Positions 6,207 to 11,373 of a stretch of DNA of 25,952 nt are shown piece after piece; within the stretch, counting starts at the first letter, position 1, and each line of letters begins with the position of its first letter. Both the position numbers and the translations under genes were made by a program. Location of the stretch: the IMG/VR virus record IMGVR_UViG_3300006026_000087, positions 1-25,952 of that record, one strand, 5' to 3'. The notes under the pieces were generated by a model. The model had not been told where the DNA came from. It was given only the letters and a program-made list of their open reading frames with translations, and ran no database searches. This DNA is from a virus.

Positions 6207-6893
6207 ATGGCACTTTGTACTGTTTCTGATGTAGAGAAAGTGCTAGGTATTGACTTAGGATCAACAGACGAATCTGCAGTTACTAACCTATTCATTCCTA
6301 CTGTAGAAGATTCTATCGCTAATTACATTGGGTATAACCCAAAATACTCTGCTTCAATTACTGAAATATTTGATGGAGACAAAACAGAAGATTTATTTTT
6401 AAGTCGTTCTCCTGTTATCTCTGTATCTTCAGTTACTGAAGATGGCAATGCACTCGTATCAGGTAATGATAATGATTATGTTGTCTATGCTTCATTAGGA
6501 AGACTTCGTAAAGTAGGTAGAGAAAAATGGTCTTCTGCTAAATTACAAAACATTACAGTTGTTTATTCTGCAGGTTATTCTGATGACGAAGCAACAGCAG
6601 AGGATATTCCAAAAGATATGAAGTTTATCTGTGCAAGGGCTGCAGGAAGACTAATTGTTTCTGCATTATCACTATCTTCACAACAAAGCACAGGAGAAGT
6701 AAATACAAACATTGCAGACAATACAACAGATTCAAAATTCCAAATGGTAAGAAATGAAGGAATTGGAGATTACCAGGTTACTTATGAATCTGTATTAGAT
6801 CAACTTAACGCTGAAGTATTAAATCAAAATGACAAAATGATACTTAACAAGTATAAGAGACAATATTTCACTTCAGCAGGTATACTAGACTAA
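6207..6893 (+). CDS. Head-tail connector, gp6-like adaptor
   Basis: This 228-aa protein has the pattern of the phage gp6-like adaptor that docks under the portal ring. An alpha-helical N-terminus (DVEKVLGI, then IPTVEDSIANYIGY) is followed by a beta stretch (ITEIFDGDKTEDLFLSRSPVISVSSVT), the YSAGYSDDEATAEDIPKDMKFICARAAGRLI helix and a C-terminal arm. Position after the capsid gene and before head-closure genes supports this. Its stop overlaps the next start by one base (TAATG). The family is recognised by layout rather than by a strict motif, so exact subfamily is uncertain. Confidence 0.82.
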   Translation: MALCTVSDVEKVLGIDLGSTDESAVTNLFIPTVEDSIANYIGYNPKYSASITEIFDGDKTEDLFLSRSPVISVSSVTEDGNALVSGNDNDYVVYASLGRLRKVGREKWSSAKLQNITVVYSAGYSDDEATAEDIPKDMKFICARAAGRLIVSALSLSSQQSTGEVNTNIADNTTDSKFQMVRNEGIGDYQVTYESVLDQLNAEVLNQNDKMILNKYKRQYFTSAGILD

Positions 6894-7084
6894 TGAGTGA
6901 AATTAATTTTCCAGAGGGTACTAAGCGAGAAGACGCTGTTAATGAACTTATTGATGACGAACAGTTCAAAGAAATGGTGTTAAAGCAATTCAATTATATG
7001 CGTATCAAAGGAATTAATCTTGTAGAAGATGCAGATGATATGGTAAATCTTTATCTTAAAATCTGTAAAGCTCTTGATGAATAA
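6893..7084 (+). CDS. Small acidic protein of unknown function
   Basis: A 63-aa, acidic, mostly helical protein (KREDAVNELIDDEQFKEMVL, then EDADDMVNLYLKICKALDE). It is joined to genes on both sides by TAATG overlaps, which implies translational coupling within the head operon and supports a real gene. No domain is recognised. Confidence 0.7.
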   Translation: MSEINFPEGTKREDAVNELIDDEQFKEMVLKQFNYMRIKGINLVEDADDMVNLYLKICKALDE

Positions 7085-7323
7085 TGGCTAGATACGACTA
7101 CAAGTGTTCTAAATGTGAACACATCTTTGAAGTTACCCATTCAATACACGAAGAACCAAAGGTAAAATGTGAAAAATGTAAAGCACTATCTAATAGACAA
7201 ATTAGCAGTAGGGTTAATCTCTATGGAACTGTTGGCATTGATTGGAATACTGATCCTAGTAAAGTTTCTCAATCTATGAGAGATAAGGCTAAAAAAGCCT
7301 CTAAAAGAAAAGTTAAGTTTTAA
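7084..7323 (+). CDS. FmdB-type zinc-ribbon protein
   Basis: This 79-aa protein begins with a zinc ribbon, C8-x2-C11 and C29-x2-C32, in the MARYDYKCSKCEHIFEV context typical of the FmdB putative regulatory family. The ribbon ends with residues around SNRQISSRVN, and a Lys-rich tail (DKAKKASKRKVKF) completes the protein. Members are widespread in bacteria and occur in phage head operons; their role is poorly known. It closes the head operon and overlaps the tail of the convergent SET gene by 11 bases. The family call is good; the function is not established. Confidence 0.85.
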   Translation: MARYDYKCSKCEHIFEVTHSIHEEPKVKCEKCKALSNRQISSRVNLYGTVGIDWNTDPSKVSQSMRDKAKKASKRKVKF

Positions 7324-7642
7324 CTTTGTACATTTTGTACTTTAAAGTTATTTCCTCTAATGGTTCTATGTCTCTGTTAGCAATTAAGTAATTTATATTA
7401 TCTATTTCTAACAAACGACAGTTAGGTGTATCACTATGATTTATAAATCCACCCAATGGCGTTCTAATAGGTTCATTTTCTCTTCCTTTGTTAAAAATAT
7501 GTGTTTTTCCTAATGAAATATCTTTATGTATTTTTTTAAGTGCAAACAAACCTAGACCTTCTATTTTGCTAGGCATAATAGTTAAACTATCTGGTAAAGG
7601 TCTGTAGGTCTTAGACTCCACAATAACCCTCACATTCATCAT
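7313..7642 (-). CDS. Minimal SET-domain protein (putative protein-lysine methyltransferase)
   Basis: The 109-aa protein is essentially only a SET domain, the fold that transfers methyl from S-adenosylmethionine to lysine. Key pieces in order are GLGLFALKKIHKD (29-41), FINHSDTPNC (66-75) with the NHS motif that shapes the SAM pocket, Y85 in DNINYLIANRDI, and EPLEEITLKYKMY (93-105) with the C-terminal tyrosines. The length resembles single-domain viral SET enzymes. The frame is open to 7693, but ATG-ATG at 7642/7639 is preferred because the longer form would overlap the PP-loop gene by 83 nt; the chosen start still overlaps by 32. It is the last gene of the minus-strand operon. The substrate is unknown; host or virion proteins are possible. 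Confidence 0.8.
   Translation of the reverse strand: MMNVRVIVESKTYRPLPDSLTIMPSKIEGLGLFALKKIHKDISLGKTHIFNKGRENEPIRTPLGGFINHSDTPNCRLLEIDNINYLIANRDIEPLEEITLKYKMYKVKT
7321..7350. terminator. Hairpin at the convergent FmdB/SET junction, possible terminator
   Basis: TAACTTT (7321-7327) pairs with AAAGTTA (7344-7350), and an inner GTAC pair (7328-7331 with 7337-7340) extends the stem with a bulge. It begins at the FmdB stop codon and lies inside the last codons of the minus-strand SET gene. A short T-run follows on the plus strand, and a T-rich stretch follows on the minus strand. It may end one or both transcripts; this is weak. Confidence 0.35.
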
Positions 7643-8489
7643 CGAATAAACTACCTTGAAACTCCTCAGATGATACTTCATCAAAGCTAGCATCTTTCAA
7701 TGGTATTCTTTCTTTATATAAAAACAATTCACTATCTAATTTATTAACAAATTGGCTTCGTGATCCACTCTCTCTTAATTTTTTATCAAAATTTACTGCG
7801 TATTCAAACTCATTTGGGCTTTCATTTTTTAACTTCCTCCACTCTTGTTGGTTGTGATAAGGACATATTATACAAGCTGATCTTGGTGGTTGTGGCATAC
7901 CTAACTTACCAAAGTATTCCAGGCATTGATGTCTTGATATGTTATTTTCTACTAATGGATAACAGTTTACTTGCCATTTATTAGGTGGGTACTTTGCTCT
8001 TTGGATTTCATCAGAAGATATACCCATTACAATTTCAACTACTTTTCCCCTAAGGCTTCCTACTTCTAATATTTCTCTAACTTTTTCTTGTATTGGTCTA
8101 ATTTTATATCTATCAGTACAGGTTCTTAAAGTAATACCTTTTTTTTCTGTTTCTTTATTTTTTGTGTAAACAGGAATGCTTGCAAAAAACCCAACTTCAG
8201 TTAAAAGATCTTCAGCTATATTACCTGTGTTTCTTTCGTTCTTAACAATAATTATTTTAATTTTGTCTTTAACTTTTTCTTTTAAAAATTCAAACCAATC
8301 ATAAACTTCTTGAGGTTCGTTACCAGTATCAGCAAATATTGCATAGTCAACAGGAGCGATTTCTCCATTGTATATTTTCATTAACAAAGTAGAACTTTGC
8401 ACTCCAGCACCTAATGAAAGTATTCTTAAATCTGGCTTTTTTTCAGAAATGCTTTCATCTGAAAGTCTCATTTCTGCAAGATAATTCAT
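7611..8489 (-). CDS. PP-loop ATPase / PAPS-reductase-family protein
   Basis: This 292-aa protein has a PP-loop at residues 25-34 (SLGAGVQSST), a FADTGNEP strand (52-59), RTCTDRYKIRP (122-132) and a CxxC pair, C206 and C209, in SACIICPYHNQQEW. This is the layout of the phosphoadenosine-phosphosulfate reductase family, adenylate-using enzymes that include CysH, DndC and related sulfur- or nucleotide-handling proteins. The ECGxH-type C-terminal motif of true CysH is absent, so assimilatory sulfate reduction is not supported. The C-terminus has a further Cys pair (CEGYC). The start has a GGAG site eight bases upstream and overlaps the preceding 32-aa gene by ATGA. Its partner gene downstream is the SET protein. 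The substrate is unknown. Confidence 0.85.
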   Translation of the reverse strand: MNYLAEMRLSDESISEKKPDLRILSLGAGVQSSTLLMKIYNGEIAPVDYAIFADTGNEPQEVYDWFEFLKEKVKDKIKIIIVKNERNTGNIAEDLLTEVGFFASIPVYTKNKETEKKGITLRTCTDRYKIRPIQEKVREILEVGSLRGKVVEIVMGISSDEIQRAKYPPNKWQVNCYPLVENNISRHQCLEYFGKLGMPQPPRSACIICPYHNQQEWRKLKNESPNEFEYAVNFDKKLRESGSRSQFVNKLDSELFLYKERIPLKDASFDEVSSEEFQGSLFDDECEGYCGV

Positions 8490-8584
8490 AACTTATCTCC
8501 ATAAACACATTTATCACAAATTATGAGAACATCTGATACTTTGAGTTCTTGTTTACATAACCTGCAAAAATATTTTTCTATCAT
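8486..8584 (-). CDS. 32-aa mini zinc-ribbon protein
   Basis: A very short gene sits exactly in the gap between two others. It begins MIEKYFCRLCKQEL and carries two CxxC pairs (C7/C10 and C23/C26), a complete minimal zinc ribbon. Its ATG overlaps the stop of the 60-aa gene (ATGA) and its stop overlaps the ATG of the PP-loop gene (ATGA), so translational coupling on both sides argues it is real despite its length. A structural or regulatory zinc-binding role, possibly as partner of the PP-loop protein, is inference. No family is recognised. Confidence 0.68.
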   Translation of the reverse strand: MIEKYFCRLCKQELKVSDVLIICDKCVYGDKL

Positions 8585-8763
8585 TCTTCAAACCATTCTT
8601 CAGGAAAAGATTTATTTCTTTTTTCCACTTCCCACTCTTTAGCTTCCACATAGTAATCCAAGCGAACAATAAACCAACTAGATATTTTATCTATGATTTT
8701 ACTTGTAGACCTAGCTAATTCCATAATCTTAACTTCTAAGGTTGCTGTAATCCAAAACCACAT
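8581..8763 (-). CDS. Small protein of unknown function (60 aa)
   Basis: A 60-aa protein with hydrophobic and aromatic residues at the N-terminus (MWFWITATLEV), then a charged amphipathic helix and an acidic end. The start at 8763 follows a GAGGA site about nine bases upstream and overlaps the 79-aa gene by 28 nt. An alternative ATG at 8724 gives 47 aa and starts 11 nt after the upstream stop, but lacks a clear ribosome site. The stop overlaps the next ATG by ATGA. The N-terminus could be a membrane anchor if the long form is made. No family is recognised. Confidence 0.55.
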   Translation of the reverse strand: MWFWITATLEVKIMELARSTSKIIDKISSWFIVRLDYYVEAKEWEVEKRNKSFPEEWFEE

Positions 8764-8975
8764 GATCCATCTTCCTCACTTTCTGTTGTACAATCTTCAG
8801 GTATTCCTGTAAATCCACCATGACCTTCTTCATCACACCTTACACCTGCACACCAAAAATTATAATGTTCTTGATATCCCATATTATGAACTAAGTCTGC
8901 AAATAAGTGATCTGGCATAGAAGGTTGTGGGATTGCAGTTCCACCCATCAATATAACAATTATAAATCCAATCAT
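8736..8975 (-). CDS. Small putatively exported Cys-containing protein
   Basis: This 79-aa protein begins with a hydrophobic stretch (residues 2-10, IGFIIVILM) followed by small and Pro residues, resembling a short signal peptide or anchor with possible cleavage near A14. The rest has four cysteines (C42, C47, C62, C72), enough for two disulfides, plus Gly/Glu-rich segments. The GGGAGAGGAAG ribosome site directly before the ATG is strong, and the ATG overlaps the stop of the 49-aa gene. It might act at the cell surface, for instance with the nearby lysozyme or in superinfection exclusion; this is speculation. Confidence 0.65.
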   Translation of the reverse strand: MIGFIIVILMGGTAIPQPSMPDHLFADLVHNMGYQEHYNFWCAGVRCDEEGHGGFTGIPEDCTTESEEDGSCGFGLQQP

Positions 8976-9121
8976 TCTTCCTCTCCCTTAACACCACTAA
9001 CTTCTAAATTGAATTTAGGGTGCATATATTTAATGTCTTCTTCTGCAAGAGCTATTGCTCTTTCTTCTGTATCTACTAGGTAAGTAAGCTTACCTAATAA
9101 ATATACTGTATGTTTTTTCAT
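8972..9121 (-). CDS. Small protein of unknown function (49 aa)
   Basis: A 49-aa reading frame starting MKKHTVYLLGKLTYLVDTEE fills the space between two other small genes. Its ATG and TGA overlap the neighbouring stop and start by four bases (ATGA at both ends), and its GAGGAAGA ribosome site lies in the end of the preceding gene. The sequence reads as a beta hairpin followed by an amphipathic helix (RAIALAEEDIKY) and an acidic tail. No family is recognised. Confidence 0.65.
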   Translation of the reverse strand: MKKHTVYLLGKLTYLVDTEERAIALAEEDIKYMHPKFNLEVSGVKGEEE

Positions 9122-9225
9122 TCTTCTTCCTCCACTACTTCAACTTCAAGTTCTAAATCTAAAGGAGCATTTTCAAACTTTATGTCTTGAAATTCTCCAT
9201 ATCTTGTTATTATTTTAATTTTCAT
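9118..9225 (-). CDS. Small acidic protein of unknown function (35 aa)
   Basis: A 35-aa frame beginning MKIKIITRYGEFQDIKFEN and ending in a run of Glu/Val residues. The frame is open to 9333, but the part before 9225 lies inside the lysozyme gene, and the Met at 9225 has an AGTGGAAA ribosome site, so the short form is preferred. It overlaps the lysozyme stop by 11 nt and the 49-aa gene start by ATGA. The predicted beta-rich N-terminus and acidic tail suggest a small folded protein. Function unknown. Confidence 0.55.
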   Translation of the reverse strand: MKIKIITRYGEFQDIKFENAPLDLELEVEVVEEEE

Positions 9226-9754
9226 TTTTCCACTTTCTTTCCCATTTTTTTTCATTACTCCAGCACCATTTGCTAGAACTCCAATCATCCCATTGTACTC
9301 TTTTATATATATCTTGTGATAACAGTGATGCAAATAAAATATTGTAATATGGAGTTAATTGAGCTTTTTTAAATTCAAAACCTAGATCTGTTTTAGATGT
9401 AGGTCCTGTGTAAGGTCTACCATAACGCATCACTATCCATTCATCCCACATTGGCAAATCGTATTCTTCAGCAATCCAATTCCATGTCCAAGGCACAAAC
9501 TGAAATACCCCAGAGTCATTATTGCCTTCAGCAGTTCTAACTGCGTCAGCTTTTCCTCTTGATTCACACCAACTAATACGAACAGCAGTATCAATATTTT
9601 CAAAATTAAAATGCTCTAAGAACAAATCTGAGTGATCACGCATTGATTGAGGTACTTCTCTCCTACATTCAATAGCAGTGTTAATAAATTGAGTTTCATT
9701 ACCTATCAGGGGTGTAGAAAAACTTGCTAAGAATAGCATACATTCAGCTATCAC
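9215..9754 (-). CDS. Lysozyme-like / transglycosylase-type peptidoglycan hydrolase
   Basis: This 179-aa protein has a hydrophobic N-terminus (MLFLASFSTPLIG) that could be a signal peptide or anchor, then a lysozyme-like domain. WCESRG places the likely catalytic Glu at E64. The DSGVFQFVPWTWNWIAEEY segment (80-98) is the family's second conserved block, and WDDWSSSKWCW (155-165) matches the W-SS-CW end of transglycosylase-like domains common in actinobacterial and phage enzymes. Likely roles are host lysis, cell-wall opening or processing. The start is GTG at 9754 with a GGAG site five to six bases upstream; no better ATG is in frame. It is the second gene of the minus-strand operon. No holin is recognisable nearby with certainty. 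Confidence 0.8.
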   Translation of the reverse strand: MIAECMLFLASFSTPLIGNETQFINTAIECRREVPQSMRDHSDLFLEHFNFENIDTAVRISWCESRGKADAVRTAEGNNDSGVFQFVPWTWNWIAEEYDLPMWDEWIVMRYGRPYTGPTSKTDLGFEFKKAQLTPYYNILFASLLSQDIYKRVQWDDWSSSKWCWSNEKKWERKWKNEN

Positions 9755-9776
9755 ATCTCTCCTTTGTTTGTTTAGC

Positions 9777-10001
9777 TTATATTAATTTTTTAGCGTCATC
9801 TACAGCTAAGTTTTTAGACTTACCTGCTCCTGTACCAATCAAAACATAGCTTTGCTTAGTACCAACTGATTTAACTTTAAATAAATCAGCTTCATGACTG
9901 CTCATATATGGATTCCACCTAACATGGATCATATAATCTCCAAAATGAATTTCTTCGTCTTGAAGTGCTTTTGCAGTATCGACATAAGGTACATTTACCA
10001 A
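9777..10001 (-). CDS. Leader gene of the minus-strand operon, unknown function (74 aa)
   Basis: A 74-aa protein starting with TTG at 10001, placed five bases after a GAGGAG ribosome site; no usable ATG is found before residue 24. It reads as a small alpha/beta protein (HFGDYMIHVRWNP, then FKVKSVGTKQSYVLIG). A GTGAGKS stretch looks like a Walker A loop but has one residue too few. It is first in the operon, just behind the minus-strand promoter, and lies 22 nt before the lysozyme gene. Function unknown. Confidence 0.65.
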   Translation of the reverse strand: MVNVPYVDTAKALQDEEIHFGDYMIHVRWNPYMSSHEADLFKVKSVGTKQSYVLIGTGAGKSKNLAVDDAKKLI

Positions 10002-10028
10002 TATATCTCCTCTTCTATCTGATACTTA

Positions 10029-10058
10029 ATTATAAACATAAAATTTGCAATTGTGCAA
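10029..10058 (-). promoter_or_regulatory. Promoter of the minus-strand accessory operon
   Basis: On the minus strand a perfect TATAAT occupies 10034-10029. An 18-nt spacer separates it from TTGCAC (10058-10053), a poor -35 with three matches to consensus. Transcription would begin near 10022, just before the ribosome site at 10006-10014. The -35 lies inside the inverted repeat TTGCA-N4-TGCAA (10045-10058), so a repressor there could block it. Confidence 0.6.
10045..10058. promoter_or_regulatory. Inverted repeat TTGCA-ATTG-TGCAA, candidate operator
   Basis: A 5-bp inverted repeat with 4-nt spacing lies in the centre of the divergent intergenic region and overlaps the predicted -35 of the minus promoter and the predicted -35 of the plus promoter. 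Short arms make chance occurrence possible; position makes it interesting. Confidence 0.4.
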
Positions 10059-10080
10059 TCTTATGTTACAATTTTATTAT
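10051..10080 (+). promoter_or_regulatory. Possible promoter of the HTH regulator gene
   Basis: TTGTGC (10051-10056), an 18-nt spacer and TATTAT (10075-10080) form a plausible promoter, with start near 10087 and an AAAGGA ribosome site before the ATG at 10102. The -10 lies inside the 9-bp inverted repeat 10064-10087, as expected for autoregulation. Matches are moderate in AT-rich DNA. Confidence 0.45.
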
Positions 10081-10087
10081 TGTAACA
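10064..10087. promoter_or_regulatory. 9-bp inverted repeat, candidate operator for the HTH regulator
   Basis: TGTTACAAT and ATTGTAACA flank a 6-nt TTTATT spacer with no mismatch. It lies immediately upstream of the HTH gene, covering its predicted -10. Symmetry and location suit a dimeric repressor binding site; an mRNA hairpin is the alternative. Confidence 0.55.
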
Positions 10088-10101
10088 AACAAAAGGACAT
10101 T

Positions 10102-10893
10102 ATGAAAGTAATAAAGTATACACCGAAAAAATTAACTAAAGATCAATTAGTTGAATTATTTAATCAAACGCCATCTAAGACCAATATGGATTTAGGTAAA
10201 GAACTAGGGATTTCACGAGAAAGGGTTAGACAGCTTAGAAATCAATTTGGATTACCTAGCGTTAAGGAATTTAATCAAGATACATTTAGAAGAGCATTAG
10301 TAGCTATTGAAAATGGTTATGGAACATTAAATAGTAATTTATTTAAAGATATTCCTAATTTTTCAATTAAAAAACTAAGAAGCTGGATGGAAGCTGATCC
10401 TGAAGTAAAAAGGCAAGTAAGAATTGCGAATACTAAAGCGTATCAAAAAAGTTATCAACCTGATTATAAAGTATGTAAAGTTTGCAATGTAAATAAACCT
10501 ATTGACGAATTTTATGTTTCAAAAATAGGAAGAGATAAAAGAAATAGAAAATGTAATCCTTGTAATATAAAGACTGTTCATAGTTACTATGAGAAAAGAT
10601 ACACACCTGAACCAATTGTTACAGAAAAAACTTGCAGTATGTTGAAAGAGTTTGGACCTTTGCCTGCAAGTTTCTTTTACAAATCTAGAAAGACAAGTAC
10701 AGGATTGCAATATTCTTGTAAACAATATCAATATGCTTATGACAAATATAGGAATATGTATAAAAAAATTATGAATAATCCAAACGAAACAGAAAGAAAT
10801 TTACAGCTTTCACAACTTGGTAATTGGAAAGCAAAAGCATTAGTAGAAGCACGAGTGGCTGTAAAAACAGATCTAGCAAAGCTGGAATCTTAA
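10102..10893 (+). CDS. Helix-turn-helix / zinc-ribbon protein, putative transcription regulator
   Basis: The 263-aa protein starts at ATG 10102 with an AAAGGA site; an upstream in-frame Met at 10045 would run through the promoter and is rejected. Residues 27-46 (TNMDLGKELGISRERVRQLR) form a helix-turn-helix very like sigma-70 region 4.2. Residues 122-160 form a zinc ribbon, C125-x2-C128 and C151-x2-C154, of the kind also seen beside phage HNH/endonuclease VII domains. A second, degenerate copy may follow (C178 to C206 with FFYKSRKTSTG between) that has lost one Cys of each pair. No nuclease core is evident. Divergent orientation from the accessory operon and flanking inverted repeats suggest it controls that operon. 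Nuclease activity is the less likely alternative. Confidence 0.7.
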   Translation: MKVIKYTPKKLTKDQLVELFNQTPSKTNMDLGKELGISRERVRQLRNQFGLPSVKEFNQDTFRRALVAIENGYGTLNSNLFKDIPNFSIKKLRSWMEADPEVKRQVRIANTKAYQKSYQPDYKVCKVCNVNKPIDEFYVSKIGRDKRNRKCNPCNIKTVHSYYEKRYTPEPIVTEKTCSMLKEFGPLPASFFYKSRKTSTGLQYSCKQYQYAYDKYRNMYKKIMNNPNETERNLQLSQLGNWKAKALVEARVAVKTDLAKLES

Positions 10894-10905
10894 TAAATAT
10901 TCGGC

Positions 10906-10922
10906 TAGTATTATATATACTA
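10906..10922. repeat. Small inverted repeat after the HTH gene
   Basis: TAGTAT and ATACTA flank a 5-nt TATAT spacer, 13 nt after the HTH stop. In such AT-rich sequence this may be chance; it could be part of the 3' structure of the transcript ahead of the terminator. Confidence 0.3.
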
Positions 10923-10936
10923 TCTGATTTGAAAAT

Positions 10937-10994
10937 AGTCGGTGGGTTATTTAGTTAGACCAATCTAATTCCCCCCTGCCGACTGTTTTCTTTT
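10937..10994 (+). terminator. Rho-independent-type terminator after the HTH gene
   Basis: AGTCGGTGGG (10937-10946) pairs with the CCTGCCGACT arm (10975-10984) over 10 bp with two wobble pairs. An inner TTAGA-CCAA-TCTAA hairpin lies in the loop, and a T-rich tract (TTTTCTTTT, 10986-10994) follows. It would end the HTH transcript and insulate the tail operon, whose own promoter lies just downstream. Confidence 0.65.
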
Positions 10995-11005
10995 ATCCCA
11001 CAATT

Positions 11006-11026
11006 CTCAATGTTATAATTGAGGTA
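11006..11026 (+). promoter_or_regulatory. Promoter giving an apparently leaderless tail-operon transcript
   Basis: A perfect TATAAT at 11014-11019 is followed by six bases and then the ATG at 11026, so transcription would start at or next to the start codon. No good -35 is seen at 16-18 nt. A GAGG lies one base before the ATG, too close for a normal ribosome site. CTCAAT and ATTGAG (11006-11011, 11018-11023) form an inverted repeat across the -10, a possible operator. Confidence 0.5.
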
Positions 11027-11373
11027 TGCCTAAATTAACCACTGCTCTTTTAAATGATTCTATAGATATTGAAAGATATTCAAGTACCGATACATTAGAC
11101 GATAGAGGTAATATTTCTCAAGACTTTTCCTCTAGTTCAACAAGTGTCCAAGCAAGAATAGTATCTGCAAAAGATAGGACAGAAAGAGAAGATGATTTTT
11201 TATCTTCTGATCAGAAAAGATTGAGAATAACAATACCTTCAGATACAGATGTAACTGTAAGAGATCGGGTTGTTTATGATTCTATAACTTGGAACATAAG
11301 AGGAGTAGAACAGGTTAAAGATAGATTTGGAAATATATTTTATAAACAATTAATTGTTGAAAGTGGATATTAA
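11026..11373 (+). CDS. Head closure protein (head-tail adaptor)
   Basis: This 115-aa protein follows the head-tail joining family pattern (PF05521, SPP1 gp16-like). It opens with a short beta start (NDSIDIERYSSTDTLDDRGNIS), then VQARIVSAKDRTEREDD, RLRITIPSDTDVTVRDRVVYDSITWNIRGVEQV, and a last strand. The protein caps the connector after packaging and prepares the tail docking site. It would be expected right after the gp6-like connector but is separated from it by the 3.7-kb accessory cassette. Its stop overlaps the next start (TAATG). Confidence 0.85.
   Translation: MPKLTTALLNDSIDIERYSSTDTLDDRGNISQDFSSSSTSVQARIVSAKDRTEREDDFLSSDQKRLRITIPSDTDVTVRDRVVYDSITWNIRGVEQVKDRFGNIFYKQLIVESGY

Follow-up and report, generated by a model that had tools for sequence, protein, structure and literature searches.

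Phage morons are extra genetic units that separate two genes which stand next to each other in related phages (PMC4378225), and a position antisense to the lytic genes is characteristic of them (PMC7067206). Here, we analyzed a moron-like cassette in the IMG/VR virus record IMGVR_UViG_3300006026_000087, a linear contig of 25,952 bases that is referred to at its full length as the window. Nine genes (positions 7313–10001) are encoded on the minus strand within the head-to-tail module and diverge from a plus-strand gene (10102–10893) for a helix-turn-helix (HTH)/zinc-knuckle protein, the putative regulator. Like morons, the cassette is placed between otherwise adjacent genes, has a promoter-like region, is read from the opposite strand, is absent from related phages, and has no structural role. 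Unlike morons, it comprises nine genes rather than one, lacks a detectable terminator and a distinct composition, and goes back to a single old insertion in which the core is constant and the cargo exchangeable; as no integrase was found, lysogenic expression is not indicated either. We consider it moderately likely that the cassette is an ancient, separately regulated accessory operon of the moron type, whose exchanged contents serve host takeover and probably counter-defence.

The genes that flank the insertion are Ad1 (head-tail adaptor, 6207–6893, plus strand; phrog_442, 6.1e-20) and Hc1 (head closure, 11026–11373, plus strand; phrog_501, 4.7e-4; PF05521, 5.3e-5, just under the cut-off). 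Relatives were retrieved by a capsid-protein scan (79 loci) and by a scan with the lytic transglycosylase-like cassette protein SLT (63 loci), and the site was compared in 96 locus records in which capsid, Ad1, and Hc1 were all readable, some contigs being present in both scans. The site was occupied by the cassette in 54 records, by a lone plus-strand HTH gene in 19, and was empty in 23. The Ad1-Hc1 gap amounted to 3–5 nt in the 23 empty contigs (e.g. L061) versus 2458–5984 nt in the 54 cassette contigs, in line with the original prediction that a connector to head-closure order is interrupted here; cassette-free versions thus exist. The expected junction of position 7323 with 11026 was not seen in relatives. 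Because Ad1 directly abuts Hc1 in cassette-free relatives, the small plus-strand gene g63 (6893–7084) and the FmdB-like zinc-ribbon gene (7084–7323, plus strand; phrog_385, 3.1e-6) belong to the insertion, the latter forming its outer edge. The g63 gene lies between Ad1 and the FmdB-like gene in most cassette contigs and is absent from empty sites; the FmdB-like gene occurs in 49 of the 63 SLT loci. In the cassette-free group, an FmdB-like gene sits upstream of terL.

When 63 distinct capsid rows were arranged in a tree, there was one change of the cassette label (100/100). With L103 and L108, in which the connector genes are uninterrupted, as outgroup, the cassette group was still a clade (90/95), and a single gain followed by retention is therefore the simplest history. 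No loss of the cassette was detected among 33 distinct capsid rows. A separate feature of the cassette-free group (L017, L020, L022, L027, L034, L061, and others) is a giant frame of 1098–1774 amino acids directly after Hc1, in the position of a neck protein of 323–382 amino acids; BLAST clustering joins it to the 382-amino acid family.

The insertion has a fixed orientation and a constant core. SLT was located at the Ad1-Hc1 site in 54 of 63 SLT contigs and was invariably encoded antisense to the structural genes; across all 63 contigs the regulator was present in 52 and g74, the first gene of the operon, in 50. The core consists of the divergent regulator and g74-SLT, often with the small genes g60 and g79. 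The remaining content varies. Among 44 distinct cassettes, 16 contained DNA-acting cargo (defined as DNA methyltransferases, an SspD/PAPS-reductase-like protein, or a possible HhH-GPD glycosylase), 15 contained a SET gene, and 14 neither; the window, with its SspD-like and SET genes, is included in both the 16 and the 15, and no methyltransferase is found among its genes. The methyltransferases belong to four Pfam families (PF00145, PF05869, PF05063, and PF01555; C5, Dam, MT-A70, and N6/N4 types, respectively), and SET and methyltransferase were never found together in any of these 44 cassettes. The slot of G014, a close relative (capsid 79% identical), contains a C5 methyltransferase together with the SspD-like gene. 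The original prediction of one undescribed system is not supported: SET, the SLT-type transglycosylase, the SspD/PAPS-reductase-like protein, and the DNA methyltransferases of relatives can be recognized, and the block does not travel intact, since a small core stays while the cargo is swapped.

Exchange is also evident from genes that changed place. In nine of the 63 SLT contigs, SLT lies away from the Ad1-Hc1 site, in the early replication region in seven and near the tail end in two. The head-tail site of G008 is empty; its early region contains a divergent regulator, a 77-amino acid gene in the g74 position, SLT, the zinc-ribbon gene z32, and SET side by side, followed by replication genes. 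Joint occurrence of cassette genes elsewhere is thereby seen for these members, not for the intact block. The SLT tree requires at least four changes of place for SLT genes, and the capsid sisters L172, L174, and L177 bear SLTs from different clades. Therefore, genes rather than the intact nine-gene block have been exchanged.

The small frames exceed chance expectation and are under purifying selection, because six families of small proteins are found repeatedly among relatives, with pooled ratios of nonsynonymous to synonymous substitution rates (dN/dS) of 0.28 (g74), 0.25 (g35), 0.37 (g49), 0.39 (g79), 0.42 (z32), and 0.53 (g60). The compared pairs are not independent, and the g49 and g35 sets are small. 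For comparison, values of 0.28, 0.41, and 0.18 were obtained for SLT, Hc1, and the FmdB-like gene, respectively. Neither of the two outcomes originally named as refuting the cassette was observed.

The original prediction had the open reading frames, strands, and order of the minus-strand genes right, although six rather than five of the nine products have 79 amino acids or less. The chaining by ATGA was confirmed at four junctions (8486–8489, 8581–8584, 8972–8975, and 9118–9121). Judged from family members and an alignment of the regulator family, several starts appear to lie further in than those of the mechanical open reading frames: GTG at 7621 for SET (102 amino acids), ATG at 8724 for g60 (47 amino acids), ATG at 9225 for g35 (35 amino acids instead of a 71-amino acid frame), and ATG at 10102 for the regulator. 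The g74 gene (9777–10001, minus strand) is followed by SLT (9215–9754), g35 (9118–9225, small and acidic; family in eight loci), g49 (8972–9121; five family members), g79 (8736–8975; 30 loci), g60 (8581–8724, small and amphipathic; 38 loci), and z32 (8486–8584; 11 loci), all on the minus strand. A model of g74 (predicted local distance difference test (pLDDT) 86) shows a predicted beta4-alpha fold; no confident fold was retrieved when this model was used in a fold search. The short g79 product has a hydrophobic N terminus and, in the alignment, two invariant Cys, and is probably exported. The z32 mini-protein, which is part of the cargo, is a zinc ribbon with two CxxC motifs, and its gene has an ATGA overlap on each side.

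The 100 bases between regulator and g74 (10002–10101) represent a predicted divergent promoter region with overlapping sigma-70-like hexamers on both strands and two palindromes. In many divergent clades, g74 is preceded by a TATAAT-type −10 element at a distance of 21–30 nt. The first palindrome, TTGCA-N4-TGCAA (10045–10058), occurs once in the window versus 0.06 expected and is a candidate operator; the second, TGTTACAAT-N6-ATTGTAACA (10064–10087), was recorded as inverted repeat I21. In a scan of all loci, TTGCA-N4-TGCAA was found at this spacer in L154–L167, the clade of the window, the N4 letters differing among these loci; a single further occurrence was in L151, and other clades lacked the palindrome. 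Such clade restriction would be expected if operator and regulator change together. The regulator contains a sigma-70 region 4-like HTH (PF04545, 0.0019, below cut-off) and zinc-knuckle repeats with endonuclease-VII-type matches, including phrog_1035 (3.6e-7). Given the location of the palindrome within the promoter region, the protein is probably a repressor of this promoter. A function as homing endonuclease was rejected: zinc knuckles are present, but the family alignment has no conserved catalytic His/Asp motif. A discrete, non-structural, and probably separately promoted unit, as originally proposed, is supported. In eight contigs (L195, L197, L198, L200, L201, L203, L207, and L186), two extra conserved genes of 222 and ~91 amino acids, co-directional with the regulator, lie between it and g74; the 222-amino acid product had no Pfam match. 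Another intergenic element, TAGGTAGCTTGTAGCACATA, is common to distant relatives and absent from the window; it occurs in five copies in G001 (L131/L132, 16726–18459), at 64300 and 64452 in G008, and at 801 in G004, and is possibly a phage-specific regulatory element or promoter.

Two cargo genes of the window lie at the distal end of the operon. The SET-domain protein (7313–7621, minus strand; PF00856, 5e-9) scored 37 bits, above the curated cut-off of 22.4, and its gene overlaps the FmdB-like gene tail to tail. At the SET position of G014 (L149:7541–7921), there is a frame of 126 amino acids without Pfam match. The second cargo protein (7611–8489, minus strand; phrog_424, 1.2e-43; PADLOC SspD, 2.8e-21) shares a PP-loop and conserved cysteines with SspD of the SspABCD phosphorothioation system and with phage proteins of phrog_424. 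It differs from the SspABCD arrangement in that no partners were seen in the cassette, and the phage family carries the annotation PAPS reductase. A PDB sequence search with the profile of this protein gave nothing. Relatives of its gene lie directly upstream of terL in other phages (L102, L103, L105, L107, L108, and L109). G001 (L131:92–2675) encodes a second, different PAPS-reductase-domain protein (PF01507, 1.8e-9) in an early minus-strand operon that, by eye, also contains two ParB-like genes, resembling an ibrA/ibrB-type pair. The methyltransferases of relatives resemble the orphan anti-restriction DNA methyltransferases of phages, with no nuclease recognized beside them, but are clustered in one co-directional slot behind a transglycosylase gene.

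All 38 aligned SLT relatives matched PF01464 at E ≤ 0.1 (best 1.2e-7), whereas the window SLT alone gave E = 0.011 and 15.8 bits, below the Pfam cut-off of 21.3. As in SLT-type lytic transglycosylases, the catalytic-Glu motif (CES) and G[VIL][FM]QF[VI] are conserved in the 38 sequences, in which Glu64 and four Cys are invariant. In contrast to PF01464 enzymes, the window protein is extended at the C terminus by a part in which Trp and Cys are conserved, and its gene lies outside the tail and lysis modules. An AlphaFold model (pLDDT 78.6) placed Glu64 at a helix end, as in the lytic-transglycosylase/lysozyme-like superfamily. In a fold search, this model found one unnamed viral model (A0A516M385, template modelling score 0.69); a PDB sequence search with the SLT profile found nothing. 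Export is probable in view of a short, hydrophobic N terminus that lacks positive charge, and the protein is predicted to cleave peptidoglycan of the wall.

These properties could also be read as those of a late lysis module with its own promoter, in which SLT is the endolysin and g79 and g60 are holin- or spanin-like helpers. The lysozyme-like grouping with an invariant Glu, the hydrophobic N terminus of g79, and the four invariant Cys, which fit an exported enzyme, speak for this explanation, which we nevertheless regard as improbable. At the end of the late arm, a DUF5675 gene adjoins an r1t-type holin gene in eight long contigs, and in G004 an amidase endolysin with a peptidoglycan-binding domain is encoded just before this pair. 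Since these genes stand elsewhere, SLT is probably not the endolysin. It never adjoins that holin, as an endolysin in a lysis cassette would, and in seven contigs it belongs to an early replication operon. An exported SLT that acts like a resuscitation-promoting factor (Rpf) and loosens the walls of slow-growing or dormant actinobacterial hosts for infection, supported by the remaining operon, appears highly improbable. In its favor, the only two cellular relatives found in a scan of genome contigs are distant Acidimicrobiia proteins that share the catalytic motif and contain a Pro/Thr-rich stretch (blastp of SLT gave 2e-11 to an Acidimicrobiia transglycosylase-like protein), two of the 38 members weakly matched PF06737, and WhiB in related contigs fits actinobacterial hosts. 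However, the PF06737 match is weak (0.017), PF01464 fits SLT better, and no solved Rpf structure was matched by sequence or fold.

The cassette might instead be a hotspot of unrelated accessory genes without shared function, at a site that does no more than tolerate insertions and in which strand and clustering reflect a promoter that was already there. The cargo is diverse, SLT and cargo were exchanged between capsid sisters (L174 versus L172 and L177), and some neighbors occur elsewhere alone, such as the PAPS-like gene upstream of terL. A pure hotspot is still rather unlikely given the fixed core of regulator and g74-SLT in ~50 contigs with fixed orientation, one gain and then retention through the 33 capsid rows, and the reappearance of much of the core as a unit in the early region of G008. 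Several observations weigh against the accessory operon that we favor. The 14 cassettes with neither DNA-modifying nor SET cargo fit a hotspot as well; SspA, SspB, and SspC were not seen among the cassette proteins scanned against PADLOC; and the fold search with the SLT model found no solved structure at E ≤ 0.001. In only 14 of 32 spacers did the promoter score exceed shuffles at p < 0.05. Members of the regulator family are also encoded alone, on the plus strand, at the site in the 19 cassette-free contigs mentioned above, and the family is therefore not exclusive to the cassette. No terminator-like sites were found at the cassette ends, the total of the terminator scan being not above shuffles, and the cassette G+C content of 0.31–0.33 grades into flanks of 0.29–0.40. 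It is because of the cargo that a slot for host takeover and counter-defence remains the best reading.

According to this accessory-operon reading, one lineage of marine phages, whose hosts are probably Actinobacteria, would have acquired the operon in a single event between Ad1 and Hc1, and the site would since then have served as a slot with exchanged contents. Transcription of the operon would run counter to the late genes and start at a sigma-70-like promoter of its own, which the divergent HTH/zinc-knuckle protein probably controls via the palindromic operator. The core would consist of g74 and a transglycosylase that is exported and cleaves peptidoglycan, frequently joined by g60 and g79, and the variable cargo mostly of DNA-modifying enzymes (the four methyltransferase types or, in the window, an SspD-like candidate for sulfur transfer) or a SET methyltransferase. 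The operon would most likely act early in infection: its cargo would shield phage DNA, and thereby may evade restriction, or alter host proteins, while the transglycosylase would remodel the host wall. A more specific proposal, which we put forward only tentatively, is a counter-defence and takeover island, an autoregulated inverted slot in the structural module that constantly couples the exported transglycosylase with exchangeable enzymes of DNA modification; remodelling of the wall and protection of DNA would then form one programme whose parts are swapped by recombination between phages.

Upstream of the minus-strand block, the plus-strand order is portal, protease, capsid, Ad1, g63, and the FmdB-like gene; downstream, the regulator gene is followed by Hc1, a neck-type protein (weak phrog_5 match), tail terminator, tape measure, and tail genes. 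The GC skew is negative across ~7.5–10 kb and positive on either side. Close to the end of the late arm, G014 (L151:10647–10910) encodes a single-cluster ferredoxin (PF13459, 1.7e-15).

WhiB is typical of Actinobacteria. It was found in eight of 24 related contigs but is missing from the incomplete sequences of the window and its closest relatives; because of these eight contigs, the hosts are probably Actinobacteria. The first phages reported for Ca. Actinomarinales are sequences of 24–29 kb with WhiB (PMC7771536). No integrase was detected in the 24 contigs, while a control search was positive in all 14 genomes, and lysogenic conversion was rejected on this basis. Neither SLT nor the regulator had a match among 50,697 GenBank phages, where the closest capsid was 34% identical. 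No cultured phage close to the carriers of the cassette is present in the searched collection. The cassette was not found described in the literature searched.

Structural modules are expected to resist insertion, and here one insertion was kept through deep phage divergence despite the swapping of its contents. The insertion links an unexplained transglycosylase, elsewhere encoded in early operons, with DNA-modification cargo. With the slot mapped in uncultured marine phages, new counter-defence genes may be searched for by position.

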